64,000 nucleotides of DNA from Tetraselmis striata. Its lineage: Eukaryota > Chlorophyta > Chlorodendrophyceae > Chlorodendrales > Chlorodendraceae. Made by a program: the position numbers and the translations under genes. Positions 3,886-32,574 of this stretch are shown here, one piece after another (the stretch's first letter is position 1; each line of letters starts with the position of its first letter). Below the pieces are notes generated by a model, which ran no database searches, was not told the origin of the DNA, and saw nothing but the letters and a program-made list of their open reading frames with translations. The DNA is taken from positions 62,001-126,000 of the forward strand of contig VCJN01001123.1 in NCBI GenBank assembly GCA_006384855.1. The letters run 5' to 3'.

Positions 3886-6800
3886 CTAAAAGTGCTCCTG
3901 GTAGAAGTCAAACTTGGCTGGGAGGGCCTTTTCTGTGTTGAGCGTTGCGCAGGTTTGATTGATGCTTTTCGCCAGCACGACTGGCCCACAGTAGAAGACG
4001 CCCACCCTCCCCGAGCGCCCCCCCTCCGGCTGGCCCTCACTGTGCGCCTGTGCCACCTTGGTCAGCTCGCCGTTCCAGTCCGGGCGCCCAAACTTGGTGA
4101 TGAAGTTGGTCTCCATGCCTGTCATGACGTCCTTCCCGTGCACCAGGTGGCTGGTCATCTGGCCCAGTTTCAGAAAGTTGGGCGTCAGGCCGCTGTCGCT
4201 CTTGAGCGAGGTGATGTGGATGTTGATGTCCAGCACCTGGTTGACGTCGATCAATGCGATGCTCTCGAGCTCGTGGCGGAACCACGTGGCCTCCTCCCTG
4301 TCCCGCGTGCACCAGAAGAAGTGCACCTTTTGAGTGGCGCACCGCCGGCCCTTTGCGCCGGATACGGGCTGCTTGATGTTGTTCAGCACGTCCCGGAGCA
4401 CCGAGGCGCAGGGCGTGACACCGATGCCCGCGCCGACCATCACCACCGTCCGGTACTGCTGCCAGGTCTGCGCGGGCGCGCCAAAGGGGCCGTCCACGTG
4501 GACCCTCGGAAACGGCGGCAGACCGGGCAAGGGGCTGTTTGCGGCATGCAGCGGGTTGGAGGCAGCGCCGGCCTCCAGGTCGACGTCCAGTGCTCTCTCC
4601 CGCCGATCCGTGACGTCTTGAATCATACTCTGCAGCGCGCAGGTCCAGTCGCCCACGGCGCGGATCTGCAGGCTGATGAACTCGTCGTCCGGGGCGGACG
4701 TCAAGGTGAAAGGGTGCCACTCCATCCGGGCCAGCTCCGGAAAGTTGATGAATACGTACTGGCCCGACAGGTAGGTGAAGCCCGAGGGCTTTGACATCTT
4801 GAGGTGAATCGTGCTTCCGGGCATGAGAGCCGCCTCCAGAATCTGGCTCGCACAGTCGGCAGCCGATGTGCGTCATCAGCTGGCTAAAATAGCAGTCAGA
4901 GGCACGGCACCAATCACAGAATACGCGAGCGCCGGCAACAGCCATGCATACTGGTCAGTGATTCAAGCTCTGGCGGACGAACCTCAACGTTTGGCGTCCT
5001 CCGCCTCCAGCACTTGATCACCTTCTCCACCAGGTAGATGCCAACGGGGATCGCCACCCAGCACCACATGTCTCCGTAGCCGTAGGGCTTTGGGAAGGCA
5101 TGGAAGATGAAGCACAGGTAGAACACCAGAAAGAGGCAGTGAGTCATTGCAAAGTTGTTGAAATTGTTCAGAACCTTGCCGACCGCCGTGTCCTTCAGCC
5201 AGCTTGCCCGCCGCGGCCATTCCGCCGCAAAGAGGTAGGCCACCAGCAGGATCGAGCACATCACCAGGCCAGTAATGGCGGGGGCAGTGCTCCACAGCGC
5301 CGCCGCGGTGGGCTGCGGCTCGCGCCAGCCAAACACCCACTGAAACTCCCTCTTGTAGGCCTCGCTGCTGAGGCGGTGGAAGTTGGAGACATGAGCAAAG
5401 GTATGCATGGCGGAGAAGAGGAGCCCAAAGCCAGCAATGATCTTGTGCCATGTGATCGCGTCGTCAAAGGGGATGAGCTTGCGGAGGAACGTCTCGCGCA
5501 GAACGGTGATGGTGTTGCGGCATACCGGGAAGATAATGATCGCAAACGCCACCTTGGTGGCCCCGGCACTGCCCTTGGCGATGGCCAGGCCCGGGCCGAA
5601 AAGGGCGTACAGGTCCGTGTTGGTGTGGTCGCAGTTCATCCCCTGGAAGACGCAAAAAGTCTCGGCGGTGATGTAGAACGCCGCCGCAAACATGGCCAGA
5701 ATCACCAGCATGCAGCCGATCTGCTGCGGATTGTTACGTGCCCAATACCATCCTGCGCTCATCCAGGAGTCCTTACGCTGCCGGACCTGGCAGAACACCC
5801 CACACCCACATCAGCCCTCCATCTGGCAGTCGATGCTTTCGCGCAAGTCAGCAAGCAATGCGTGCCGCTGATCATTCACGCCTACCTGTGGCCTGTTCGA
5901 GCTGGCGGGTGTGGGGGCTGAGAAGCCCTTGGATATCTTCGCCAGAATGCGGGATGAAGGCGTGCCCGCGGCTCCCGGGGTCTTCGGTGTCTTCGGGGTC
6001 CGTGCGTCCACGAGCATTGGCGGGGGCTTCAAGGGCCCGACGTGAAGAAGCGCCAGCCCCGGATACTTGGACTCAATCTGTGCAAAATCCGATGGCGACA
6101 GTGCGCCATCGTGGTCCGCGTCAAGGGTGTTCATCATGCCGCTCGCCATGCGGGCCAGCTGCTCATCGTCAAGCTTCATGCGATTCTCCTCCAGGCAAAC
6201 CTGTACGGTGCGCCATTCAGTGCATGTTTATCAGCGATGTGAACTCCAGCTTATGGGCGTCTACACAGCAAATCTGAGCTGCGCTCACCCTCAACATCTT
6301 CACAATGTCCGCTTTCTCGATGGCGCCGGACTGATCGATGTCGTACAGTCGGAAGGCAAAGCTGAGGCGGTCGTCCACCGTGCCGTGGCGGAGAATCAGC
6401 ATGCTGTCCACGAAGTCATCGCAGCTGAGCGTGTTGGTGGACTTGTGATCCATGCGCTCAAACAGAATGGTCGCAAGGAACTGGCTCTTGGTTTGGAGCG
6501 CTTTCGCGAATTCGAGCGGTGTCATGGGCGTGCCCACCGACCCGGTGACGGCGGCAAACTCTTTCCTTAAAGACTGCATGTCAATCGAAATCCGAGTCAG
6601 CACATATATTTGCAGCGGAAACACGCATTTAATACGATAAACTGCCCAGTAACATGAAGGGCTCTTCACCGTACCTGAACGTGCGGCGCGTTCACATCTC
6701 TGCTGCGCTGGCGAGGTTTGTAGGACCCCGTCCAGTCCGAGACGTCATCCAGCGTTAGCCTCTCGCCCTTCACCGACAGCTGGTGGGCCAGAGTGAGCGC

Positions 6801-6892
6801 GTCCGCCATCGCCTGCACTCTGCTGGCCTCGGCCACCTCAGCACTGGGGGCCTCTGCATACTTGCTGGCGTTAGCGACAGCCACTGCCGGGT
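3886..6892 (-). CDS. EF-hand NADPH oxidase (NOX/RBOH type), 5' end not identified
   Basis: A membrane flavocytochrome that passes electrons from NADPH through FAD and two hemes to oxygen, making superoxide outside the membrane. Modelled exons with GT-AG borders and matching phase are 6892-6675, 6573-6289, 6200-5886, 5786-4983 and 4842-3886 (stop TAG). Exons 2 and 3 each carry an EF-hand loop (DIDQSGAIEKAD and DADHDGALSPSD), implying calcium control. Exon 4 has the transmembrane core with heme-ligand histidines in WHK...MHTFAH and in the pair THC...IFHAF. Exon 5 has the FAD motif HPFTLTSAP, NADPH-site motifs GAGIGVTP and FYCGP, and the family ending FDFYQEHF. About 858 residues are visible. 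The first exon needs one carried base from an upstream exon I could not find. Exon 3 also has a TPKTP-rich linker. Confidence 0.9.
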
Positions 6893-6896
6893 CTGC

Positions 6897-6914
6897 GGGG
6901 GGGGGGGGGGGGGG
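6897..6914 (-). promoter_or_regulatory. C18 homopolymer serving as polypyrimidine tract
   Basis: On the minus strand, 18 consecutive C residues are followed directly by GCAG and then the first recognised NADPH oxidase exon. The homopolymer sits exactly where a splice-acceptor pyrimidine tract is expected. Confidence 0.5.
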
Positions 6915-7077
6915 TGAGAGGGAGGGGCCAGCGTCAGTGGAGTTGAGCGACCCTCGTCAAATTAAGGAGGTGTCGGGGCTCTCGCCGCCGCCCCTGTCAA
7001 TAGAATCCTCCAGGACGATTCGCGACTACGTGACATTCGTCAATTCAGGCCCAACGGGGCACCGCTGCTCTATTTAG

Positions 7078-8671
7078 AACCCGCGACAAAGACAGGCCGC
7101 CATGTCGGCTGCTGTGCCGGCCAGTAGAGCTGGGGTCACCTGAGCCAGACATCGTAGCGGTGTTTCTTTGGCGGTGATTTTCTTTGGCGATCATGAACGC
7201 CAAGCCAGGGTCGATGAGCTGATGTCTCTTGTCAGCGATCCGTTGCCCTATCGCAGTCGATAGGTCGCGAGAGGATTTGCGACGTGCCTTGGCGAGTCTT
7301 CAAGTAGGTTCGTCCGTGCGGTTTCGTCTGCACTGTGCACTCGGGCATCGAGAGGTTATGTGGTTATGCGGTTATATGTGGCGCTGGTTCGAAACACCGA
7401 ACTTGAAACAACAGTGTGCGAGGGTTGGCATCGGAAGAGTGGAGCTACCAGCAGTACTGTTGCTACCGGCACCAGCAGAGCAGCGATATCGTGCGTGTGG
7501 TTGGGTACAAGTACCCGTACCAGTACTACGCATCACTCATGAGTCCCGCCTTATGCGGGATGCGGGCCGCTTTTAGGCGGCTTTCTGTGTTGATTTTCTA
7601 ATTCTGGGTAACTGCCCATTTTGTAATTCACACCAGTACTACGGGTATAACGGTAGACGATATCTTCGATCGTATCACACCGGTTCGCGTAGGTACTCGT
7701 TTCTGAAGACCGTAAACGGGTCTCAAATCCGAGATGTGTAGCTGGCAACGCTTTTTGGCTACGTGGCACACGCTACGTGCGTGATATTAGCACGTGACCG
7801 CTCGCACTCCTCCCTCATCATCCCGCCGCCAGCCCCATCCCTGCCCGCGACACACAAGACGAGGCACCTGAACGCCCCCGTATGCCTACGTTAGCGCGCT
7901 GCTACCGCGGTATGTGCGTGATGGTGCCGGCCGGTGTGTTCGATTGGCAGCGGTGGGGCGGGATGGGTTGGCGAGACGGGTGGTCACGTGGGCTCTGAGT
8001 TTTCATCAAATGACGTTATATTTGACTGTATCAACCGGATACTAATCACTATTCGCTCTCGTTTCGGTAGTTGCATCTCAGGATTGTGACCCCGCTATAC
8101 ACAGCTTAAACCCCGGGAGGATTTCATTTAGCGAGTACCCGGGGAACCGGTGTGATAGTGATGCACGGCGCCAGTATCGTCAGTACCTGTACTGGTACTG
8201 CATCGTTCAGCAGTCGTACGAGTATAGCACTTCCGCTGTTCAGCAGCAGCGGGTAATCGTGGGTTTATATAAGCCCTGCTCGTACGACTGCTAAGCGCTA
8301 GCGCTACAATACTCCGTGGTTTTCAACCGACCGCGACGGGAAAACCCACATCGTACGACACCTGTAGTTTGTATGGATGGTAGTCACACCAGCATCACTG
8401 GATGTATTCATGTAGCGATTATCATCAGGGCCAATCACGTATATTATGAAATATAGTAACAACCGGTACGAGTATCGTACGAGTACGAGTTTCGGGCTAC
8501 AAGCAGCCGTATGGTCCCTTGGCGTACCCGGGTAGTGCAAGATGATATTGTAGTGCTCGTATTTCGATGGATGACGGGTTTGGTTACACGGGGTAGAGTC
8601 TGTTCTTTGATCCTCCGCTATTATTTATTTCATGTCAGCGTTGTAGTGTACTGGTACGATTTGGTCATGTG
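7078..8671. other. Intergenic, rich in GTAC-type palindromes; no gene seen
   Basis: AT-rich stretches alternate with clusters of GTACC, GGTAC and CGTAC words (for example 7507-7535, 8186-8225, 8461-8487). One copy of a double-hairpin repeat lies at 7530-7640. No ORF shows family resemblance. Confidence 0.5.
7530..7640 (+). repeat. Double-hairpin dispersed repeat, copy 1
   Basis: Contains CCCGCCTTATGCGGG directly followed by GCCGCTTTTAGGCGGC, two small stem-loops, then CTGTGTT and a tail ending near TGTAATTCACACCAGTAC. The same arrangement is found at 20800-20930, and a diverged relative at 52545-52665. Confidence 0.6.
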
Positions 8672-21114: not shown

Positions 21115-21197
21115 TGTAAATTAAAACTGTCTCGTAACCAGTTGCGAGCAAGGTCACCCCAGGTTGTTCAAGACCACACCCGGCTCACCACCCGAGT

Positions 21198-22109
21198 GTG
21201 ATATTCTCGTCCGTACGTCCGTGCGTTACCATGCCAGATGGAGAAGAACCCGTCGCCGAGCCGACGTTGGAGTCGCTGAACGCAGATATGAGGGCCCAGT
21301 CTTCATTACTGCGAGAGTTGGCTACAGTTGTGGCGCAATTGACGGCTCGTGATCGCGTTGTTGATGGGGAAGGGGCACATGGCTCCGGCTTCGGGCAGCG
21401 CTTCGCGGGACAGCCGACAGGCAGCGGGGGAGCCGCAGAGCGCCCCGACTTGCTAGAGCTAGCCCAGAGCGGCCGTGTCGGAGCAAAATCCGTGAGTGCC
21501 GAGGATGACTACCTCGCGGTGCCAGAGCTACTGCAGAGAGCAGAGTCTGGTTACGAGGCCGTTCGACCGGTCAGCCGAGTGCCTGGACTCTTCCCCCTGA
21601 GCACCGACCTAACGAACGAGTACCTCAAGCAGGACGACCGGCGTCTGCCGGCCCAGGAGGAGTACTTGTGGATGTCGTGTTTCGGGGCCCACATGGCCGC
21701 ACTTTTCGTGGCTCTCGACAAGCTGCTACCTTACGTCCCTGCCGCTAACCATGACTTCACCCCCTACCTCGCGAGAGCTCGGAATCACGCCGAGGCCATC
21801 GACAAGGCGTTTCGTTTTCGTTTGGCTTTCCTGCGGAGGCTAAATGAGATCAAGCGTGTGCACGGTGACCAAGGTGTTCTGGACGTGCAGCTGCGAGCCC
21901 AGCATTTTCAGCCTGCTTCGGAGCATCTGGGTTCCGCGATTTTTGGGGACCTCATGAAGGACTACGAGCGTCGTGTCTTCGAGGCGACCGTTGCCAGCAG
22001 CGCAAAGGCAACCGCTACTGCCCGAGTAGCGGTTGCAGCTGCAGGTCGCGGGCGTGGGCGAGGACGTGGCGGCGGGCGTGGACGTGGCCGTGAAGGTGAG
22101 CACGAGTGA
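21198..22109 (+). CDS. Element ORF1, Gag-like protein with Gly-Arg-rich tail
   Basis: A 303-codon frame. The likely start is ATG 21231 (MPDGEEP), because no stop or splice signal separates it from the 5' repeat; the frame is open from 21198. It has a short coiled-coil-like N-terminus, a helical middle without a recognised fold, and an Arg-Gly tail (GRGRGRGGGRGRG) of the kind that binds nucleic acid. By position it corresponds to ORF1/gag of tyrosine-recombinase retroelements; that role is inferred. The stop is a single TGA (22107-22109) followed in the same frame by the recombinase ORF, so readthrough would give a fusion of about 876 residues. Confidence 0.6.
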   Translation: MIFSSVRPCVTMPDGEEPVAEPTLESLNADMRAQSSLLRELATVVAQLTARDRVVDGEGAHGSGFGQRFAGQPTGSGGAAERPDLLELAQSGRVGAKSVSAEDDYLAVPELLQRAESGYEAVRPVSRVPGLFPLSTDLTNEYLKQDDRRLPAQEEYLWMSCFGAHMAALFVALDKLLPYVPAANHDFTPYLARARNHAEAIDKAFRFRLAFLRRLNEIKRVHGDQGVLDVQLRAQHFQPASEHLGSAIFGDLMKDYERRVFEATVASSAKATATARVAVAAAGRGRGRGRGGGRGRGREGEHE

Positions 22110-22145
22110 CGGTGTAGGGCGCCTTTCGTCGGAGCTGCTGGAGCT

Positions 22146-23858
22146 TTGCGAGGCCACCTTTCGGTGACCGCCGCAAGACGCACCCTTGCAGCGCAACGGC
22201 GAGATGAGCGCCCTGTGTCAGGACCTTACCCCCCCACCTTACAGACTTCCTTTAGACCTTCCTCGGTGCGGCGCTTCTTACAGCTACAGCCGAGTGCGGC
22301 TCAGCCATCCGCACACCTGCACATGGCGGCTCAACCAACCGCTTTTCTTACCACCCCATCTCTGCGTCCGTCGGTTGTTACACTACGTGTCACAACTGGT
22401 TCGCAACGACCAAGTTTCGCGCGTGTACGTTATGCACGGGACAGGCGCTACGAGCGCGAAGGGCGCGCGGGGCGGCCCTCTTACCTGAACCTAGCCCCGC
22501 AAACCCGTACTGAAGCTACTGCAAACCCGTCCAACAGCTACCGGCCAACCGCCGGGAACCTAACCGCTGCTGCCAAGTACTTTGCGAACAGTAGTCGTAC
22601 CGGTGGAACTCTGTCGGTAAAACGACGCACGTACGTAATTGACGAGCCCGCAGCTGTCGCGCCGTGGGCTGAGTCACTGCGATCCCGGTTGCAGGACGCG
22701 TTCGGCTCGGACGAGCTGGGCCAGCGAACGCTCGACCTGCTCTCCAGCTCCCTCAGCGCTCAGACACTCAAGAGCTACGCCGGCAGACTGTCTCAGTTCG
22801 CGGAGTTCTGCCACGACTCTGAAAACATCAGTCCGCTGGAGGCGACTACCGCTACTGTCGTTCGGTATGTTGCCTGGATTGGGGAGCGAGGGCACATCGC
22901 AGCTAAGTCGCTGCAACCCTACTTGTCTGCAATCAACACGTTCTTCGAGCTGCACAACCTCGTCCCAATCGCCAAGGACAGTCTGCACCTAACTTCAGCA
23001 AGGCGTGGGCTGATGCTGCGTCAGCGCCGGCTGGACGCTGCCCCTTTGCGTGTCCCTCTGCCTGCTGATGTAGCCTATCGCTTCGTCACAAAGGCCGAGC
23101 TAATTGTGTCTGCTCCTTACCCAGAGTACCACCTCGACTTCCGAGCTCTCTTGGCCTCGGTTGTCAACTTCATGTTCTTTGCTTGGGGCCTTACTGGCGT
23201 CTCCTGTCGAGTGCGAGATGTGCATGTCGACACCTACAACATCACCTTGCAAGTGTACCGCGAGAAGGGTCGCGCTGGCCGACGGGGGCCCGACGACCTG
23301 CGCGTACTTCTCCTTCCGGTGTCCGAGCACCCTCGAGTGGCACGTCTCTTGCACCACTTCATCGACAACGTCCAATCTGTCCCCCTGGTTATTGTTGGCT
23401 TGGCTGCATCAAACTTCTGGGCTGTCACTGCGGCCGAGCAGTCAAAACCTTGGACTGCGGCTACAATGACAGACTGGTTGTCTGCAGCCATCAATCTAGT
23501 CAACGCTGCCCCCCCTGCTGGCACTTCCTGGACTTCACACAGTCTTCGCAAGGGCGCAGCCTCTGCAGCGAATGCCATCGGAGTGCCATTGTCCCACATT
23601 CGCTACCAAGGCGGTTGGGCCACTAACTCTGACGTCGTTCTGGACTACATCGACCCCAACGTTCTTCCTTCACCTGGCGCATGGTTCTTCTTTGGACACA
23701 TCGCCCCCCTCCGCCACTTCCAAGTCCAACAGGACTCCGCAGCGGTGGCCTTCCCAGTGCCTCCTTCACGACTTGGCGCTACCTCTTCTCCGTCAATCCA
23801 CCGCTCTCTCCGTTCGCTCAAGACTGGCAAAACCAGACTCAACTTTGAAATGATCTAA
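22146..23858 (+). CDS. Tyrosine recombinase (phage-integrase family)
   Basis: Catalyses site-specific strand exchange through a tyrosine-DNA bond. The frame is open from about 22110 to TAA 23858; the first ATG is 22323 (MAAQPT), giving 511 residues. The N-terminal part is a low-complexity linker, followed by a SAM-like core-binding domain (TLKSYAGRLSQFAEFC, about 22765-22812). The catalytic domain shows the first Arg in GVSCRVRDV (near 23200), HSLRKGAASAANAIG (His-x-x-Arg, near 23540), GGWATNSD, and the nucleophile Tyr in DYIDPN (near 23645). All expected catalytic residues are visible. The stop codon lies inside the first bases of the right terminal repeat. Translation may depend on readthrough of the ORF1 TGA or on an internal start. 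Confidence 0.88.
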   Translation: MRGHLSVTAARRTLAAQRRDERPVSGPYPPTLQTSFRPSSVRRFLQLQPSAAQPSAHLHMAAQPTAFLTTPSLRPSVVTLRVTTGSQRPSFARVRYARDRRYEREGRAGRPSYLNLAPQTRTEATANPSNSYRPTAGNLTAAAKYFANSSRTGGTLSVKRRTYVIDEPAAVAPWAESLRSRLQDAFGSDELGQRTLDLLSSSLSAQTLKSYAGRLSQFAEFCHDSENISPLEATTATVVRYVAWIGERGHIAAKSLQPYLSAINTFFELHNLVPIAKDSLHLTSARRGLMLRQRRLDAAPLRVPLPADVAYRFVTKAELIVSAPYPEYHLDFRALLASVVNFMFFAWGLTGVSCRVRDVHVDTYNITLQVYREKGRAGRRGPDDLRVLLLPVSEHPRVARLLHHFIDNVQSVPLVIVGLAASNFWAVTAAEQSKPWTAATMTDWLSAAINLVNAAPPAGTSWTSHSLRKGAASAANAIGVPLSHIRYQGGWATNSDVVLDYIDPNVLPSPGAWFFFGHIAPLRHFQVQQDSAAVAFPVPPSRLGATSSPSIHRSLRSLKTGKTRLNFEMI

Positions 23859-24135: not shown

Positions 24136-24582
24136 TGTGCTAGCGGCAAAATTCAAGATATATCAATATCTCAGAAGATCGCCATACTATTTACACGAGC
24201 GCGTCGGAGTATTTGTGCCTATGTATTTATGATATAAATTCATCCTCACAGTGTCCTTTCTCCTAGGACTAACTCCGCCTTGCCCGAATGGCTGTCTCGG
24301 CCCGCGTCTCGCAGCAGGCCACCTCCCCTTCCAGTATGTTGTCCCTCTAGACCTGCTTGAGGTCCTACGGGCGGGGCATGGTCGGCGTTGCAGCGGGTTG
24401 TAGCGTATATGGCCGCGCGCACCGGCGCCTCTGGCTGATCCCGACTCTGCATCCGCACCTTTACCATCGGAACACGTCAGCCGGTGCTCACCACTGGCGT
24501 CACCGTACCCGGCACATACTCCTTTTTGGAGTTGGTGCAGTTTGCCTTGCAGACAAGCAGCAACTGAGGGTGGCTTAGAATA
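24136..24582. other. Intergenic between two mobile elements
   Basis: No gene recognised. The segment lies between the recombinase element and the copia 3' LTR. Confidence 0.5.
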
Positions 24583-25035
24583 TGTTACAGTTCTCAGGGC
24601 TCAACAGAGCCCTTAGTACTATCAGCAGCTACACCTGCTGGCTATGGGCTCAACTGGGGATGCTAGCTGATGCACCTTGGCACTGCTGTAGTCTAGTATA
24701 TAAAGCATGTTGAGCCGCCATTTTGGCGGCTCCTGTCTCTAAACTACTGGCTGAGGTGGTGCCCAGAGTTGCATGACCATCTGAGGTCATTCTAGAGTGG
24801 GCATGTTCGCCTCATGCCTGCTGATGGCTCTCTAGGAACTAGGCTCCTGGTGGAGCTCTCAGCTCCTTAATATATTATGCCATGTATGTACTATACCTAA
24901 GTACTACTGCCAAATATCGGCGCAACACATGCAGCTCTCAGTGGGCAGTGCAGTCTGCCTAACACTGCAGCTGGTGGCCTTACAGTCAAATCAGTAGATC
25001 AGTAACCGACCAGTGTAATCTATTACTACTCAACA
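24583..25035 (-). repeat. 3' long terminal repeat of the copia element
   Basis: 453 bases starting TGTTGAGTAG and ending CTGTAACA on the minus strand, with the canonical TG...CA ends. It is directly preceded by the polypurine tract GAGGAGGGG. Its first 67 bases recur at 31946-31880. Confidence 0.8.
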
Positions 25036-26789
25036 CCCCTCCTCACTGGTTGCTGCAACTTGCACATCATTCATGACCTCAGCCCTGAGTGCCTCAAACT
25101 GAAGTCGCGGCAGTGCTTTGGTAAACATGTCTGCAAGCATCTCATGAGTGGGCACATAGTGGATGTGCACGGCACCTGCTTGATGGGCGTCGCGCACAAA
25201 GTGAAGTCGGATGTCCAAATGCTTGGTGCGCGCTGACGTCACATCCGTGCGTGGTGGCGATGACTATGCACGCCTGGTTGTCCTCACCGACGGGAGTGGG
25301 TGCTGTCTGCTGGAAGCCCAGTTCTTCTAACATTTGGCGCAGGAACACTGCCTCTTGCACTGTCATGCAGAGAGCGATGTACTCTGCCTCTGCTGTGGAC
25401 AGGGCCACTAGTGCCTGTAATTTCGACAGAAAGCTTATTGCTCCTCCGCAAAGGAAGAAAACGTAGCCGGTAGTAGACTTGCATTGACTGGGGTAGGTCG
25501 TCGGGAAGTTGGCGTCACTGTATCCATGTAGTGCCAGCTTGTCGTCGCCACCAAAGGTGATTCCACGGCTGTGTGTCCCCTTGAGGTACCTCAGACAGTG
25601 TCGTGCGTCCTCCATGTGTGCCTTGCTTGGTGGGGGTAGATATGAATCGGCACAGTCGGGCGACTGACTCAGCGATATCTGGCCGAGTGGCGATTGCGGC
25701 GTAGAGAAGAGCTCCCACAAGGCTGCGGTAGGTGCTGACCTCAGTCTCGGTGCACTGTTCGGACTCGCGGGGGTCGTTGGCCACACTGGGAACCTTGGTT
25801 GCACAGCACTGCTCCATTCCAAATCGAGCGACCAGGTCATGGATGTACTTTGACTGATGAATGGTGATGGTGCGTGCTGCTCGGTCTCGCTCAACCTTGA
25901 CTCCCAATAGCCATGAGCAACTGAACCACAGTAATGAGAGCTCATCATGTACGGGGCACTCGCCAGTCATCACCGCTGCTGCATAGGACTGAGTCTGCCA
26001 CGAACCATCATCTGGGTTGTACACTATGCGGTGTCTGTTGTGCACTCCTCGGGTGCCCTGTCGGGTACGCGTTGCTGCAGCTGGCGTTGGCGCGGTTGAT
26101 GAAGACGGTGCGGTCGCAGGTACAGTGCCGGATTGCAGTGGCTGGTTGGGGACGATCGGCGCGCGAATGACTGGTGTCGGGGGCAGTGGGGTGATAATAG
26201 GGGGCTGAGCTCCTGGCATAGGAGGAGGGGGAGTGATTTCTCTGCTCGGAGGCGGAGGTGTTGCTTCGCGAGGCGCTGTAGGCTCTGAGGAACTGGGCGC
26301 CGGGGGTAAGGTGCTGTCAGGAGTGTCACTGTGGTTGCTGTCGTCGCAGCCGCTGTCGCTGTCGCTGTTGCTGTGGATACGGTTGCAGCTCCGGGTAGAG
26401 CCCAGGCAAGAGGTAGCGGGTCGACTCACGGGCTGCGGTGGTGCGCATGTGGGGCAGCAGGGATTCGGGGCTTTTCTAGGGGCGGATGCCCCTCCTGAGG
26501 TGGACGCCCCTCCTGAGGTGGACGGCCATCCTGAGGCTGATGGTGGTCTCAACCCCTCTTGAGTGGCAGCATGCCACTCATATGGCACTTCAGTCGCCAC
26601 GGCGGGACCATGGGGCGTCTCATCGAAGGCGACGGACCGGCTGGCGATGACGGTGCGTGTGTCGGCCATGTAGACTAGCCACGCTGGGGAGTCGGGCGAG
26701 TAGGCAGGCAACGAAAATGCCCTTGCGGGGTGAGTGAGCGAGTTTGCGCCGATTCTCTCGGGGGGTGTGGACATAGGCTGGACATCCAA
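25036..26789 (-). pseudogene. Copia reverse transcriptase/RNase H region, internally deleted and frameshifted
   Basis: From about 26789 the frame has the low-complexity linker after integrase. Near 25930 it jumps from the start of the polymerase region (MTGECPVHDELSLL) straight to the post-catalytic segment LLGVKVERDRAARTITIHQ. The roughly 150-residue core holding the YVDD active site is missing. RNase H follows in other frames: YSDANFPTTY (Asp), STAEAEYIAL (Glu) and EDNQACI (Asp), then RTKHLDIRLHFVRDA and the terminal PTHEMLADMFTKALP. Frame changes fall near 25650 and 25240. The copy cannot make an active polymerase. Confidence 0.85.
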
Positions 26790-27504
26790 ACACTCGCAGG
26801 TAGGACAGGTCGGGCACGGCGCCCGTGATTTTCCGCAGTGGGATATCCGCGACGCCTTGCCGCATTGTGCGGTTGTGGATATGGACAGCGACCATCATAC
26901 CAAACTCCCAGTACGAGTCCGCGAAGGCGGCATGGGTAAGCATGCAGCGCGTCCAGGTATTGAGAGTGCGCCACGAGCGTTCAGAGAGGCCATTCTGGAA
27001 CTGGCTGTAGGGGGCTGCATATGTGCGACGCACTTGTAACTCGTCACAGGCGGCAATGTATGATGCGCTCCGGAACGCGGTGTCATTGTCAAGTCGCAGG
27101 GCTTGTACAGTGAATTCGAGGTTGACAACCATTATGTTGAAGGCGCGGAGACAGGTAACTGGCGCAAAGCAAGAGTGCACAAAGTACAGGCACGCCATGG
27201 ACGAGGCGTAGTCGAAGGCGCCACAGCAGTAGGTATTGCCTTGCAAAGATGGAGTACTGGTTTCCTAGAAGTCCCAGCCCACCAGTGAGAAGAAGACAGT
27301 GGGTTTATCGTGGCATCGGCGCGGCATCGGTGCAATAGTCGACTTGACCAGTGCACATGCCTCACATAACGGCAAGCTGATGTGCTGGAGGTGACCATAG
27401 CGCGGGACATCGTGGTCTGCCAAGGCGGCATCCATTGCACGCTCATGGAGATGACCGAGACGAGCGTGCCACAGCATCTTGATATGTTCCTTCGGCAAGC
27501 GCAC
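26620..27504 (-). pseudogene. Copia integrase region
   Basis: The His-Cys zinc region starts at about 27475 (LWHARLGHLHERAM...CEACALVK). The catalytic core follows in ORF 27246-26620, with Asp in LRLDNDTAF, Glu in NGLSERSWRTL and the copia signature YLRVFGCPAYVH. The first catalytic Asp region is blurred by a frame change at about 27265. It would join new cDNA to the genome if intact. Confidence 0.8.
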
Positions 27505-27549
27505 GGCCAGCAGGCCTGTGGAGCTAGACGTGTCGGCGGACAGCGATGA

Positions 27550-27945
27550 CTAAGCGGTAGTGATTGTTGTGTTCAGCACAAAGAGCTGACCATTGATCTC
27601 AATGGGGACAGATATAGCATCGGATAGCTGCATGGCATTGCGCTGAGCTGTCATCAGCACTTTGAAATCTGGGTTGGCTATCTCAGCGGCTCGCGCACTG
27701 AACAGCCGAAGTACACGTCCATTTGATTTCAATGCTAGGTCGGGGACGTTTAGGCAGTTGCGGACCATGGAAGACACAGAGCGTCCATCCTCAGTCTGCA
27801 CTACGGTAAGGTGGATTGTGCCCACACCCACTGCGTACGCGCCAAGCCCACTGATCCATCGTCGGGTTGTAGATCGGTAATCACCGGCGTTGGCGTAGTC
27901 TGCGAAGCAAGCGGCCATATGGGACGTGGCGCCGGTGTCGAACAC
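27550..27945 (-). pseudogene. Copia aspartic protease domain
   Basis: Begins with FDTGATSHM, the catalytic Asp motif of copia proteases, and continues as a compact domain of about 130 residues. An in-frame TAG lies one codon before VFDTGATSHM, separating it from the upstream polyprotein. Confidence 0.75.
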
Positions 27946-28053
27946 CTACTGGTCAGGAAAGGTGTGGATGCTGGGCAAGGCTGTTTCATCCTTCCATGAT
28001 GTCATGGAGATAGCGAGAGCCAACCAGCGAGCAACGTTGGCATCAATACACGC

Positions 28054-29185
28054 TCAAAGTGCACGACGTCGTAGGTCCTCATATATGCCAGCGAGGTTGA
28101 GCGTGGACTGATCGAAGCCCATGCTTTCGCAGCGGATGTCGCAGTCAGGTTCCGTCCAGATTCCATCGAGGAGCAGCATGTCGCGGCCCGGGGTTGGGCC
28201 GTGCATCCTATATGCCCGGGTTCCCTTGCGAGACATGAGTTTTGGAAGGACGCTGTCTTTCAGGTGCGGGGAATCCGCCCATGCAGGCGAGAAGTTGCCA
28301 CGGGTAAGCATGTCATCCACTATCACTGGTGGTCTCACACATCGCTGATAGTGTCGTCGCAGGTCAGCAAGGCTGTGAATGTTGGTCCAGAAAAGAGTGT
28401 CACGTCGTGCAGTGGGGCCCAGTTCGTGCGCTCGTGCAAGCATGGGCTGCCCAAGGGATGCGCGGATCTGTGGTGACCGAGCCGCGCCACTGACATTTTC
28501 AGCCACATAGTTGAGACCACGCGGCTGTTGGCGCTGGATCCCATAAATGATTCTGGTCGTCGCATAGAATGCATGTGCTCGGTCATCGCGCATGCCTAAA
28601 CCGAGCCCCGCAGCAGAGAACGGTTGACACGGTGGGGAGCTGACCACCATGTCGACAGATGGCAGAGATTGGAAGTCCTCAGCCGAGAGTTGGTTGACAT
28701 CTTGTGATGGGAGGCGATCAAACGCATTGTCCACGGCCGCACGTGGCAAGCTGTGAGACCATTTGCTTTGCAGAGTATGTAGCTCCGACTGAGCTGCTGT
28801 TGCGATTGCACGGTCGTTCTCTACTAGTGTCACCATACTGAAACGATGCCCTAATGAGCACAGCTCACCAAGGATGGCGAAAGTTGCTCCGCTGCAGAGG
28901 CCAACGTAGTGAATAGGCCGTGACTTGTTGAAGGCTGTGCTATCGGGTTTCAGGTGTTGAATCTCTGTGAGAGGGGCAATGCTGTCCTGGATGTCACGCT
29001 CTTGCTGTTGGTATGCAGCCCATGCTGATTGTTGGTCTGTAGCGTCAGTGCGGGTGCACCAATGCTGCGCGCGGCGGCGAGCTCGGCGGCGTTGACGCTG
29101 TGTGCGGCGTCGCCAACGTCGCTTGGCATCGCGGTCAATCAGCCCATTGTCATGGTGACGAGCTTCATCGTGATGTAATTCTGCG
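28054..29185 (-). CDS. C5-cytosine DNA methyltransferase carried inside the copia element
   Basis: Transfers a methyl group from S-adenosylmethionine to carbon 5 of cytosine. The minus-strand frame is open from about 29185 to the TGA at 28054 and is presumably part of a polyprotein. An Arg-rich leader is followed by motif I (HYVGLCSGATFAILGEL, about 28910-28860) and the acidic SAM contact VEND. Motif IV is SPPCQPFSAAG, with the catalytic Cys near 28629. Motif VI is VAENVSG, with the Glu near 28500. A motif VIII-like ARRDTLFWTN follows. The order I-IV-VI-VIII is the usual one, so it is not a rearranged plant DRM type. The C-terminal motif X is not evident, and the protein ends with RCESMGFDQSTLNLAG. 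This is the only long domain of the element without a visible stop. Confidence 0.85.
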
Positions 29186-30013
29186 AGGCAGCGCCGTTAG
29201 CGCACGCCTCAGGTAAGCACCTCCAGGAGAATCATCATCGTAGTCCGGACCACTGCTGTCATTGGTGGAGCCAAGAGCGAGAGACGGGATGTTTCCCTCG
29301 GTGTGCGCGGTGTGGGCAGAGCGCTCATGCTCATCCTCAGCAGAGTCATCTGGCGTGTCAGAGTTGGATTCGAGGCGAGGCGTGTCTCCATCACTGTCTG
29401 TTTGGATAGTGTAGGTATCGCTGACATGCATCAGGTTGCCTAGGCATGGAGTGCTGCGCAGCCGTCTGGGGTGCGTCGACAGTGGATACCGTGCCGGGCG
29501 CGGGATGTTCATGGCGGATGCCGAGCGCATCGAACCGCCCCTCGGCTGTCTCGCGAGCATGTGAGACCCATAGAAGTCGTAGTCCTGAGGTGTGCTCTGA
29601 AACGCTTCAACAGCCGTAACTGCAGCTGAGCTCTCCATCTGTTCTGTGTGGGACTGGCGAGCCATATGGGTCTTGTCCGGTTGAGCAGCCGTTTTGGGCA
29701 GGGGCTGGTGTCTGCCCCGCATGCGGCTGAAGGCCTGACACATATGGCGCTTGGTGCGACGGCCACTCGGCGGTAGGGCTGTTAGATGCGGCGATGCAGC
29801 TGGTACATGCTTGAGGTAACATTCGAACACATACTGATGTAGCCATTTGAGCTCCTCGTCACGGCGTTCCGAGGAGCTGAGGATTGCTGGCTCCGAAACC
29901 AACTCCTTGATTTCCATGACAGGTGTTGCGGCCACTTCCTCCATGGCGGCTTGTGTGGCCCGTTCTTCCACTGCGAGGGCATGCGCTCGCGCGAGTGTCT
30001 CACGCTGCCGCAC
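29165..30013 (-). CDS. Unknown copia-borne ORF between gag and the methyltransferase
   Basis: About 282 residues with no family I recognise. The N-terminal part is helical and charged (AVEERATQAAMEEVAA), the middle is Ser/Pro/Arg-rich, and the C-terminal part is strongly acidic (DSDGDTPRLESNSDTPDDSA). It stops in a frame one base away from the methyltransferase frame at about 29190, so a frameshift would be needed to join them. It may be the C-terminal part of gag or a domain gained along with the methyltransferase. Confidence 0.45.
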   Translation of the reverse strand: MRQRETLARAHALAVEERATQAAMEEVAATPVMEIKELVSEPAILSSSERRDEELKWLHQYVFECYLKHVPAASPHLTALPPSGRRTKRHMCQAFSRMRGRHQPLPKTAAQPDKTHMARQSHTEQMESSAAVTAVEAFQSTPQDYDFYGSHMLARQPRGGSMRSASAMNIPRPARYPLSTHPRRLRSTPCLGNLMHVSDTYTIQTDSDGDTPRLESNSDTPDDSAEDEHERSAHTAHTEGNIPSLALGSTNDSSGPDYDDDSPGGAYLRRALTALPRRITSR

Positions 30014-30422
30014 AAGGAGAGGCTCTTCGTCGGGGCCACCAAGGCCACGCCCTGCCTCCTGCCAATGCTTGGCACGGGTTGACTGTGGTCGTTGTCAGCG
30101 GAGTGGTTGCCGCACTTGTCGCGCTGATGCCGTGACGAGTATCGGCTGGCACCCACTGCCACATGCCTGCATCCCCTCCATGCGCGATGGGACTGCGCGC
30201 ATCAGGCATGGGCGCCGGACCTTTGCCCTTGGCACGCGCTGACAAGCGGCGTGCCACAGGAGGGCTTGAGCCCGCATATATGGGCTCGGGTGTGGGTGAG
30301 CGGGCAGGTGCAGAGATTATGAGCGGTCTGCTCTAGTCGACAAAGGTGAGAGTGCCAAACGGGCTCTGTGGCAGGGACACTGGGGAGCTGCGCATTAATT
30401 TGACACCGGAGCTATCAACCGA

Positions 30423-31718
30423 CTAGGCTTGCGACGGCATTGGAGGCAGTGGGGTCTCAGCAGGTGGGAGACTCGCGTCATCTGCAAGGAAGCTAAATGA
30501 CAGTGCGCCAAAGTCGTGAGTAGCTGCGGTAGCTGCTGGAACAGCGTCCGCTGCAACATGGGCCTTGGCACGACATTCTGATTCACGGTGCCCCTGACGC
30601 CCGCAGGTCCAACACTTGCCAATGAACGGACGAGAGGTGCGGGGGCCACTAGGACCGGTGTGGTGGCCCCGGAGTCTGGTGAGTTCCTGTGACTGAGCTT
30701 GGATCTCAGATTGCATCTGCTCCAGCTTCGCCATCAGGGCTGCAATGTCACCTGATGGAGCGGTCGGCGGTGATGAAACGGCTGCCGGTGGGGGTGCGGA
30801 TGTCCGAGCAGACACTGCGGTGAAGGCTCCAGTCGGGTCCGTGCTGGGATTTGGGAGTGATTGAAAGAGCGCTGCTTTGTAGCGAGCAAAAGTGGTGAGT
30901 GAGGTGTCCATTCGCAGTGCAACGCGGTACATCTCCATCTTGGGATTCATGCCATGTTTGAAGAGGGTCAACATTTCACGATCTGTGATGTGACCACCTG
31001 CATCCAAGAGCGCACTGCGGCATTGCTCCAGACGGCGAGCGTAGTCACGCACCGACTCGGTTGAGCGCTGCTTCTCATCCAGGTCACGACGCCGCTCGAG
31101 GGCTTCACCTTCATGACTCGGGATGAACTCGAGACGCAGAGCTTCCAAACAGTGGTAAGCTTGCTGACCATGTATTGGGCCCAGAATCCTCACGGGCTGT
31201 CAGAATCGCATTGACCGCGATTGGGTGCTTGTCAAGCATTGACAAGCACAGCTGGGAGACCTGCTGGTGGTGATACGCGCTGCATGTGTCATCGGCATCC
31301 CTGGGCTCGAAGATGGTACGATAGCCCTGCACATTCTTGATGGATTGCTTGAATTGCACGAGGAACATGCGGAAGGCTGCGATATCATGACAGTCTCACA
31401 CTAGGAGGTATGTGAACTGCTTGGGCCTGAGTTCAGCGTAACGGCGCTGATGGCGGTCATCTGCTGCAGCTTGGGCAGCAGCTGCAGCACGAGCTGCAGT
31501 TGTTGCCGCATGAGCCTCTGCAGCAGCAAGAGCGGTTGCAACATCACTAGGCGGGGCTTGTAGCCCGGCTGCGGCGGCAGCGGCAGCAAGAGCCTGGTGA
31601 TGTTGCGCAGCAGCCTGGGCCTCCGCAGCAGTGACAGCAGCGGATGCGTCAGCAGACACAGAGTGTTTTGCTCCAAAGGCAGCACCATCAGTGATATATC
31701 GATGATGCCACTGGTCAC
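30423..31718 (-). pseudogene. Copia gag with CCHC zinc knuckle, frameshifted
   Basis: The N-terminal part is Ala-rich (31659-31396), then a TGA interrupts at about 31396. The capsid-like region continues in the same frame to about 31190 and, after a frameshift, from 31193 to 30423. The knuckle CWTCGRQGHRESEC lies near 30610-30570. The protein would package the element RNA. The damage makes this copy non-functional. Confidence 0.8.
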
Positions 31719-31879
31719 AGGTAGGTGCTGGCGGGTTAGCGTCCGCTATGATGAAGGTGGCGAAGGTTAGCGAGTTACGCTGACTAAGGGGTAATTCCTA
31801 GTATATGCCCGCAAGGTGAGGCCTGGAGCCACTGCGCCCGCCTCTCTGTTAGACTTGGGCACCTTGCTCCGACACAACC

Positions 31880-31946
31880 AGATGATGGCCTTACAGTCAG
31901 ATCAGTAGATCAGTAACATACCAGTGTAATTTATTACTACTCAACA
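31880..31946 (-). repeat. 5' LTR remnant of the copia element
   Basis: The 67 bases from TGTTGAGTAG to GGCCATCA match the start of the 3' LTR at about 92%. The remaining 385 bases of the LTR are absent. Confidence 0.75.
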
Positions 31947-32574
31947 CTCCTAACATGAACTTTAATTAAGGAAGTATTCAGGCACGGTGTGTGGGTTGTC
32001 TTAGGCTGCCCGTGCGGGTCGAGCGGGCTCGTCGGTTCCGGATAGCGTCCTACCGAAGGACACCAAAAATATACTCGTAAATTCGTCGGCAGAACACAGG
32101 TCGCGCCGACGCAACAAACCGACACCCGCAGCGGCGCCCCTTGCGACCCTGGTGGTCACAAAAGCCGCCACCACACAGTGTTGAGCGCTTTGGCTCCTTC
32201 TTCCCGTCTGGGCCCGGTGGGACGGGCGGAGCATCGCTAGCGAGCTGTAGCGGCCGGTGCTTGAAGGTAAATCGCGCTTGTCGAGCGAGAATTGAGCAAC
32301 TCTGCTTTCTACCCACGCGACGGGCAGCAGCATGAAGTCTCGCTTGCAGGGGTCGCAGCCCGCGGCGAACTGGACTTAGCGCGGGCTAGCGCAGGGATAG
32401 GCAGCGGCAACCCGCTCTTGCCGCTAGCTCCTAGGGTCGGCGTCGGAGCATGCGAGTATGACACTAGTAGTCGATAGCATAATGACATAAGCCAAGGTAA
32501 CACAATTCACTCAAGCCTTTTGCCACGCTGCCACGGCACCTACTTGCATGAATTAGGATCCATTTACATGCAAT
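31947..32574. other. Intergenic; no gene seen
   Basis: No ORF with recognisable content between the copia element and a piggyBac-like fragment. Confidence 0.45.

Follow-up and report, generated by a model that had tools for sequence, protein, structure and literature searches.

Does a cytosine methyltransferase (MTase) found inside a decayed retrotransposon of a green alga belong to the element, or did it land there by chance? The locus lies in a window, by which we mean the whole stretch of 64,000 nucleotides that was analysed, from Tetraselmis striata (contig VCJN01001123.1, positions 62,001 to 126,000, of assembly GCA_006384855.1). An original prediction, made from the sequence alone, had described a C5 MTase built into a Copia element of what appeared to be a chlorophyte, and NCBI does list Tetraselmis striata under Chlorophyta, Chlorodendrophyceae. 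Based on the analyses presented here, we consider it almost certain that the MTase is a selected cargo domain of a Copia family, encoded in the gag-pol polyprotein.

The window contains one dead Ty1/Copia element of family A, on the minus strand at 24524..31946, delimited by blastn against the intact copy L031, to which its two main pieces are 93.6% and 96.3% identical. The 3' LTR is complete (512 nt, 24524..25035, minus strand; 96.3% identity to the L031 LTR). Of the 5' LTR a remnant of 68 nt survives (31879..31946, minus strand), recognized by blastn to L031 and by a 73-nt direct repeat at 90%; a deletion took the remainder together with some of the leader. Given that a 5-bp target duplication, AGGAG on the minus strand, lies directly outside both ends (31947..31951 on the 5' side of the element and 24519..24523 on its 3' side), this is one genuine Copia insertion.

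All domains of the element are on the minus strand. The gag region (30423..31797) is split into several broken frames and was assigned by homology to the intact polyprotein P0002, with a Retrotrans_gag match of 0.0028, below cut-off. Within it is a CCHC zinc knuckle, CWTCGRQGHRESEC, at 30570..30620 (zf-CCHC_5 0.00023 and zf-CCHC 0.0033, both below their cut-offs), and a low-complexity linker from NC to the MTase follows (28921..30422, from frame comparison with P0002). Downstream of the MTase are a copia aspartic protease with the motif DTGATSHM (27550..27945; Pol_BBD 0.0031, below cut-off), which adjoins the MTase in intact polyproteins, a gag_pre-integrase domain (27265..27549; PF13976, 1.8e-7), and the integrase core with the start of an SH3-like domain (26620..27264; rve 0.0013, below cut-off, and SH3_retrovirus 1.9e-12). 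A deletion of about 755 nt removed most of the reverse transcriptase (RT), as L031 positions 6709 to 7464 are missing in blastn. Its junction is near 25922, and the RT end and RNase H that remain (25142..25966) were placed by blastn to L031, with no Pfam match in that interval. The order is gag, CCHC, linker, MTase, protease, gag_pre-integrase, integrase-SH3, the lost RT and RNase H, so that the MTase sits between gag/NC and protease, as had been proposed. Elsewhere in the window (21138-23858, plus strand), two successive frames of 323 aa and 582 aa, the second encoding a tyrosine-recombinase domain (Phage_int_SAM_1 7.4e-8, Phage_integrase 0.0045), may belong to a DIRS- or Crypton-like element.

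The MTase of the window copy is read from an open frame of 380 aa (28054-29196, minus strand), which matches Pfam DNA_methylase (PF00145) at 1.4e-10, above the cut-off, and NCBIfam dcm at 1.2e-13, below the cut-off of that model. What we take to be motifs I, IV (PPCQPFS), VI (ENV) and VIII (RRDTLFWTN) occur in this frame in the canonical order that the prediction gave. The frame differs from the domain core, which alignment with intact relatives places at 28009-28920 (minus strand, motifs I to X). An in-frame stop at 28054-28056 ends the window MTase just before motif X, which the intact relatives carry.

The genome (a 224-Mb assembly of 2903 contigs that includes the window) has at least 111 match rows for the window MTase, of which at least 19 lie in frames that run for 2000 aa or more without interruption; both counts are lower bounds, from a search that scored 108 of 562 candidates. 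One complete copy was read for each of five Copia families, and all five encode an open gag-MTase-pol polyprotein flanked by LTRs that are 98.5-100% identical. These are A (L031, 2483 aa, LTR identity 99.8%), B (L032, 2299 aa, 100%), C (L034, 2147 aa, 100%), D (L035, 2164 aa, 98.5%) and G (L056, 2162 aa, 99.2%). A family B copy without most of its RT (L033) also has LTRs that are 100% identical. The LTR pairs of L031 to L035 and L056 measure 512, 469, 470, 447, 324 and 492 nt, respectively, and identity near 100% indicates recent insertion. Target duplications of 5 bp were read by eye in six of the eight elements inspected (L031 to L035 and the window element, but not L056 and L058), in some cases with the BLAST edge shifted by a base or two, L035 being the least clear.

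The MTase lies between gag and protease in all five families (by Pfam, with the protease of G seen by eye). Pfam searches at E 0.01 detected DNA_methylase, gag_pre-integrase, SH3 and RVT_2 in every family, the DNA_methylase of family C being below the Pfam cut-off (0.0015; 18.5 of 22 bits). Of the five, D alone gives no match to the integrase-core model and G alone none to the protease model. The zinc-knuckle model misses both D and G, although G has a CCHC by eye. The polyproteins have the Ty1/Copia order of protease, integrase, RT (RVT_2) and RNase H, the last assigned by homology only. In the relatives, C5 MTase motifs I, IV (with its Cys), VI (ENV), VIII and IX-X are ordered, with motif I of G degenerate. 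Families A and B are 53% identical in the MTase, compared with 72% in RT, 68% in integrase, 60% in protease and 26% in gag. Used as a query, the whole polyprotein found four homologues. The proteins P0006 and P0007, whose label Tetstr1 we read as Tetraselmis striata, are 98-99% identical to family B, piece by piece.

It had been argued beforehand that family copies without the domain would count against a built-in MTase, and a search for intact gag-MTase-pol copies had been proposed; the intact copies carry the MTase. The expectation of another case of a captured MTase holds in part: this is a Copia in an apparent chlorophyte, but it is not a single case, as several Copia families and a LINE are involved.

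A relative of family G, L068 (G000:C427:322000-329500), is non-autonomous. It has LTRs that are 99.8% identical and an open 1235-aa frame with gag, is without protease, integrase core and most of RT, and retains a remnant of the MTase from which the catalytic Cys and ENV have been lost. This copy inserted recently with a dead enzyme and was presumably mobilised in trans. Among 129 matches of another MTase search, 39 end at residue 204-206 with 59-72% identity, as does L068, the one such copy that was read.

Selection on the domain was estimated for families A and B with a Nei-Gojobori script, without a significance test. The most informative pair, L018 and L033 of family B, indicates purifying selection on the MTase: 24 nonsynonymous and 40 synonymous differences give a dN/dS of 0.18, compared with 0.24 for protease-integrase (the comparison with pol that had been suggested) and 0.68 for the linker. 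L020 and L028 against the same reference, L033, give 0.21 and 0.22 for the MTase. Closer pairs, with few differences, range among those listed from 0.17 to 0.85 for the MTase and from 0.06 to 1.26 for protease-integrase. For family A, intact copies give 0.23 and 0.24 against L004, and 0.44 against the older L007.

The decay of the window copy itself is a separate matter. The suggestion that late selection may have spared its MTase found no support: changes specific to its lineage comprise seven nonsynonymous and four synonymous substitutions plus one stop, and pairs that include the window copy have dN/dS from 0.33 to 0.82. The MTase has none of the 11 frame-breaking indels and one of the eight listed stops (one indel and one stop of this copy sit right at the alignment edge). 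Of the roughly 18 lesions in the aligned frame, chance would by our estimate place about 2.5 in the MTase, so the single lesion observed is unremarkable. The context of C-to-T changes relative to L031 has a CHG excess, but transversions are also in excess at the same sites, and we treat the former as alignment noise. In the decayed family A copies (L004, L005, L006, L011, L014 and the window copy), 15 of 34 indels are 4-base insertions, compared with one 4-base deletion. The window copy contributes eight of its 14 indels, three of the eight being exact tandem duplications, and the more diverged L007, L009 and L012 have none among 45 indels. These insertions look like fill-in repair of 4-nt staggered breaks.

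One Copia family of this genome appears to manage without the enzyme. In the only family F copy that was read (L058, 1561 aa, LTR identity 100%), gag, a knuckle (seen by eye), protease, integrase and RVT_2 are present and the MTase is absent. In a comparison that took a family A RT as query and entered 80 of 82 RT rows and 91 of 111 MTase rows, 47 of the 56 RT rows with at least 54% identity (families A/B/C) have an MTase row no more than 8.5 kb upstream in the same orientation, compared with none of the 24 family F rows (48% identity). Some of the nine A/B/C rows that have none may reflect the scoring limit of the MTase search, and in one case (C2171) an MTase row does exist at a distance of about 9.5 kb. 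In an integrase-RT tree of seven elements, rooted at the midpoint, F is the sister of A+B+C+E, and D+G branch off outside that group. Each of the four inner branches is starred, but D and G are long branches that join. Either the MTase disappeared from F, or there were separate gains in D/G and in A/B/C/E. We favour loss, short of proof, because the Copia MTases form one clade. Since family-F-length frames make up 45 of the best 150 RVT_2 rows, the MTase is not needed for success. These frames are clustered (at least 45 rows spread over 29 contigs, with as many as three on a single contig; the contigs include C776, C1435, C1776, C1303, C1190 and C406), which could be the result of centromeric or otherwise targeted insertion.

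Related MTases are found outside Copia as well. A LINE in the same genome (G000:C2687:12680-23197; L067 and L057) has a 3505-aa frame, the last 2565 aa of which match RVT_1, PCIF1_WW (8e-15), DNA_methylase (1e-8) and RNase_H in Pfam, with the MTase between RT and RNase H; related loci are on C653, C2172 and C596. The frame therefore holds two different methyltransferase-type domains. PCIF1 is an adenine-N6 RNA methyltransferase, at whose site the motif NPPF is expected, and the LINE has NPEY there, by eye. Judged by title, none of the papers listed in a literature search fits PCIF1 within retrotransposons. Among ENA records, P0008 is a Copia polyprotein with a related MTase (50% identity), and P0009 is a Ty3/Gypsy element (35% identity) in which the MTase lies, by eye, between RNase H and integrase. 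Copia A, B, C, D, E and G, the LINE and the Gypsy element all retain the motif IV catalytic Cys and the motif VI ENV, although the residues flanking the Cys are variable in C, D and E.

A tree of 27 MTase sequences brought together nine retrotransposon rows, 12 of 20 viral loci, three database C5 MTases, two of eight other loci from this genome, and DNMT3A. The nine retrotransposon MTases form one clade (99/96), and the Copia rows form one clade inside it (96/90). DNMT3A, entered as three pieces totalling 197 aa and with no other eukaryotic DNMT family knowingly included, is next to the retrotransposon clade (88/84, not starred). Viral contigs have no match to the single MTase sequence; the MTase profile found 20 distant C5 MTases in them, and the 12 that were placed in the tree are outside the retrotransposon clade. 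The profile also matched seven proteins among 8000 candidates scored, of which four (Tetstr1 or ENA) look like retrotransposon pieces and three are other C5 MTases (best 4e-9).

In the PDB, the profile matches HaeIII and DNMT3A best, DNMT3A being the top eukaryotic structure. DNMT3A aligns in three co-linear segments, a strong central one and two weak outer ones (about 2 bits each). By eye, motif VIII of copia G (AAHRDTLLWTN) resembles that of DNMT3A (AAHRARYFWGN), and a C-terminal stretch, GF...RxxLG, aligns with DNMT3A too. From the tree position and the PDB matches we consider the enzyme DNMT3-like, and it is likely, if not proven, that the retrotransposon MTase belongs to DNMT3. We lean slightly towards the view that a dedicated DNMT3-like retrotransposon lineage spreads between Copia, LINE and Gypsy elements as a selfish accessory domain, with one green alga as host to at least five Copia families and a LINE with a PCIF1-like domain.

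Standalone C5 MTases of about 325-341 aa also occur in several copies in this genome (G000:C1993:505-1440, C776, C1647, C2337, C355, C1455 and C1230), two of them on contigs that hold family-F-length frames (C776 and C1230), and are perhaps from viral insertions. No host DNMT3 gene came up in the genome, in a search that would overlook a gene split by introns. Another contig, G000:C2009 (L061), has a 630-aa frame for a bacterial-looking C5 MTase and is possibly a contaminating bacterial contig.

What would a retrotransposon do with such an enzyme? In the scenario we prefer, the MTase, as part of Gag-Pol, would be packaged in the virus-like particle with the RNA, RT and integrase. There, while reverse transcription is under way or shortly afterwards, it may methylate cytosines (probably those in CG) in the cDNA of its own element, and new copies would reach the nucleus already methylated. 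A possible benefit is protection from foreign-DNA sensing or nucleases; alternatively, methylation could serve self-limitation, marking the copies so that the host can tolerate them. To the observed architecture, recurrence, conserved catalytic residues and recent insertion, this scenario adds packaging and cDNA methylation, which we infer. A DNMT3-like cargo domain combined with cDNA self-methylation has, as a whole, a little better than an even chance of being right in our judgement, and for the element's own DNA as the main target we would put the chances at even. CpG content does not separate MTase carriers from the MTase-free family F, either over whole elements or at codon positions 3-1. 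Observed/expected ratios, from one or two elements per family, are 0.75 (A), 0.81 (B), 0.84 (C), 0.89 (F), 0.89 (G) and 0.96 (D) for whole elements, and 0.65 (A), 0.69 (F), 0.78 (B), 0.78 (G), 0.82 (C) and 0.95 (D) at codon positions 3-1.

A host or viral MTase gene that inserted once into a copia copy, unrelated to the life cycle of the element, would explain the window taken by itself, which shows one dead copy only, and standalone C5 MTases of about 325 aa do exist in the genome. However, intact gag-MTase-pol copies rule out such chance nesting: position and reading frame are identical in five families with open polyproteins, the standalone L059 and L063 are outside the retrotransposon clade, and the MTase has signs of purifying selection, so that we regard it as extremely improbable. 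If the domain is indeed cargo, it could still be kept for binding or assembly rather than catalysis, and L068 keeps its frame open through a remnant that is without catalytic residues; given the catalytic Cys and ENV in five open autonomous families, we think this improbable. The enzyme may instead methylate RNA, for example the packaged genomic RNA or the tRNA primer. DNMT2-type C5 MTases act on tRNA, DNMT2 structures are matched by the single sequence as well as by the profile, and the MTase is positioned next to the NC knuckle. However, the profile fits DNMT3A better than DNMT2 (7.8e-9 vs 2.3e-7), and an RNA target seems to us rather unlikely, if a shade less so than a non-catalytic role.

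The most serious competitor places the target elsewhere, in host chromatin or in rival elements: the MTase would alter the host methylome or silence other copies, and selection would have favoured the resulting self-limitation. De Mendoza et al. (2018, PMC5890265) considered this possibility for Symbiodinium. With more than 100 MTase match rows, many of which lie in long open frames, the dose of enzyme could be large. Synthesis inside Gag-Pol would nevertheless favour action in the particle, and we consider this explanation unlikely, though the least so of the four. Methylation of the element's own cDNA by a packaged enzyme remains the scenario that we prefer.

Retrotransposons that carry DNMTs are already known in LINE, DIRS and Gypsy elements, and in Copia from one sentence of 2025. 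In the text available of de Mendoza et al. (PMC5890265), DNMTs are reported in LINE and DIRS elements of Symbiodinium and in a Gypsy of Klebsormidium, and Symbiodinium Copia elements are without one. In yeast, de novo CG methylation was observed for the SymbioDIRS DNMT3s; the enzymes of the Gypsy and LINE elements had no activity in the same assay, a result the authors call inconclusive. CpG depletion of carriers is reported there for SymbioLINE only. KnitGypsy-Dnmt3 of Klebsormidium nitens is similar to the elements described here in being an LTR element of the green lineage with a DNMT3-type MTase in its polyprotein, several copies and purifying selection. It differs in being a Gypsy with the MTase in the Pol ORF of a charophyte, whereas ours are chlorophyte Copia elements with the MTase at the gag-protease position. 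SymbioDIRS-Dnmt3 and SymbioLINE-Dnmt are likewise retrotransposon-borne, in DIRS or LINE rather than Copia elements. The SymbioLINE MTase is of an orphan type and mostly in a separate upstream ORF, unlike the LINE here, where it is between RT and RNase H.

The 2025 sentence (PMC12344493) places some DNMT3s within LTR Copia and DIRS elements, the same combination of Copia and DNMT3 as here. As far as the available text goes, it gives no architecture, family count, chlorophyte copy or relation between Copia, LINE and Gypsy, and it is the sole mention of a Copia DNMT that we found in the open-licence literature. In that literature we found no description of chlorophyte Copia families with an MTase or of a Copia/LINE/Gypsy MTase clade. 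What is new is that several chlorophyte Copia families and a LINE have in common one retrotransposon MTase clade. Like DNMT-bearing retrotransposons elsewhere, these elements have the MTase in the ORF of intact elements, in several copies and, in families A and B, under purifying selection.

Cytosine methylation is normally a weapon of the host against retrotransposons. An enzyme with its catalytic residues kept, and common to Copia, LINE and Gypsy elements, raises the question of what use methylation is to a retrotransposon. The genome of Tetraselmis striata offers a natural experiment on this question, in which the recent carriers A, B, C, D and G can be set against the sister family F without an MTase and against L068 with its dead enzyme.
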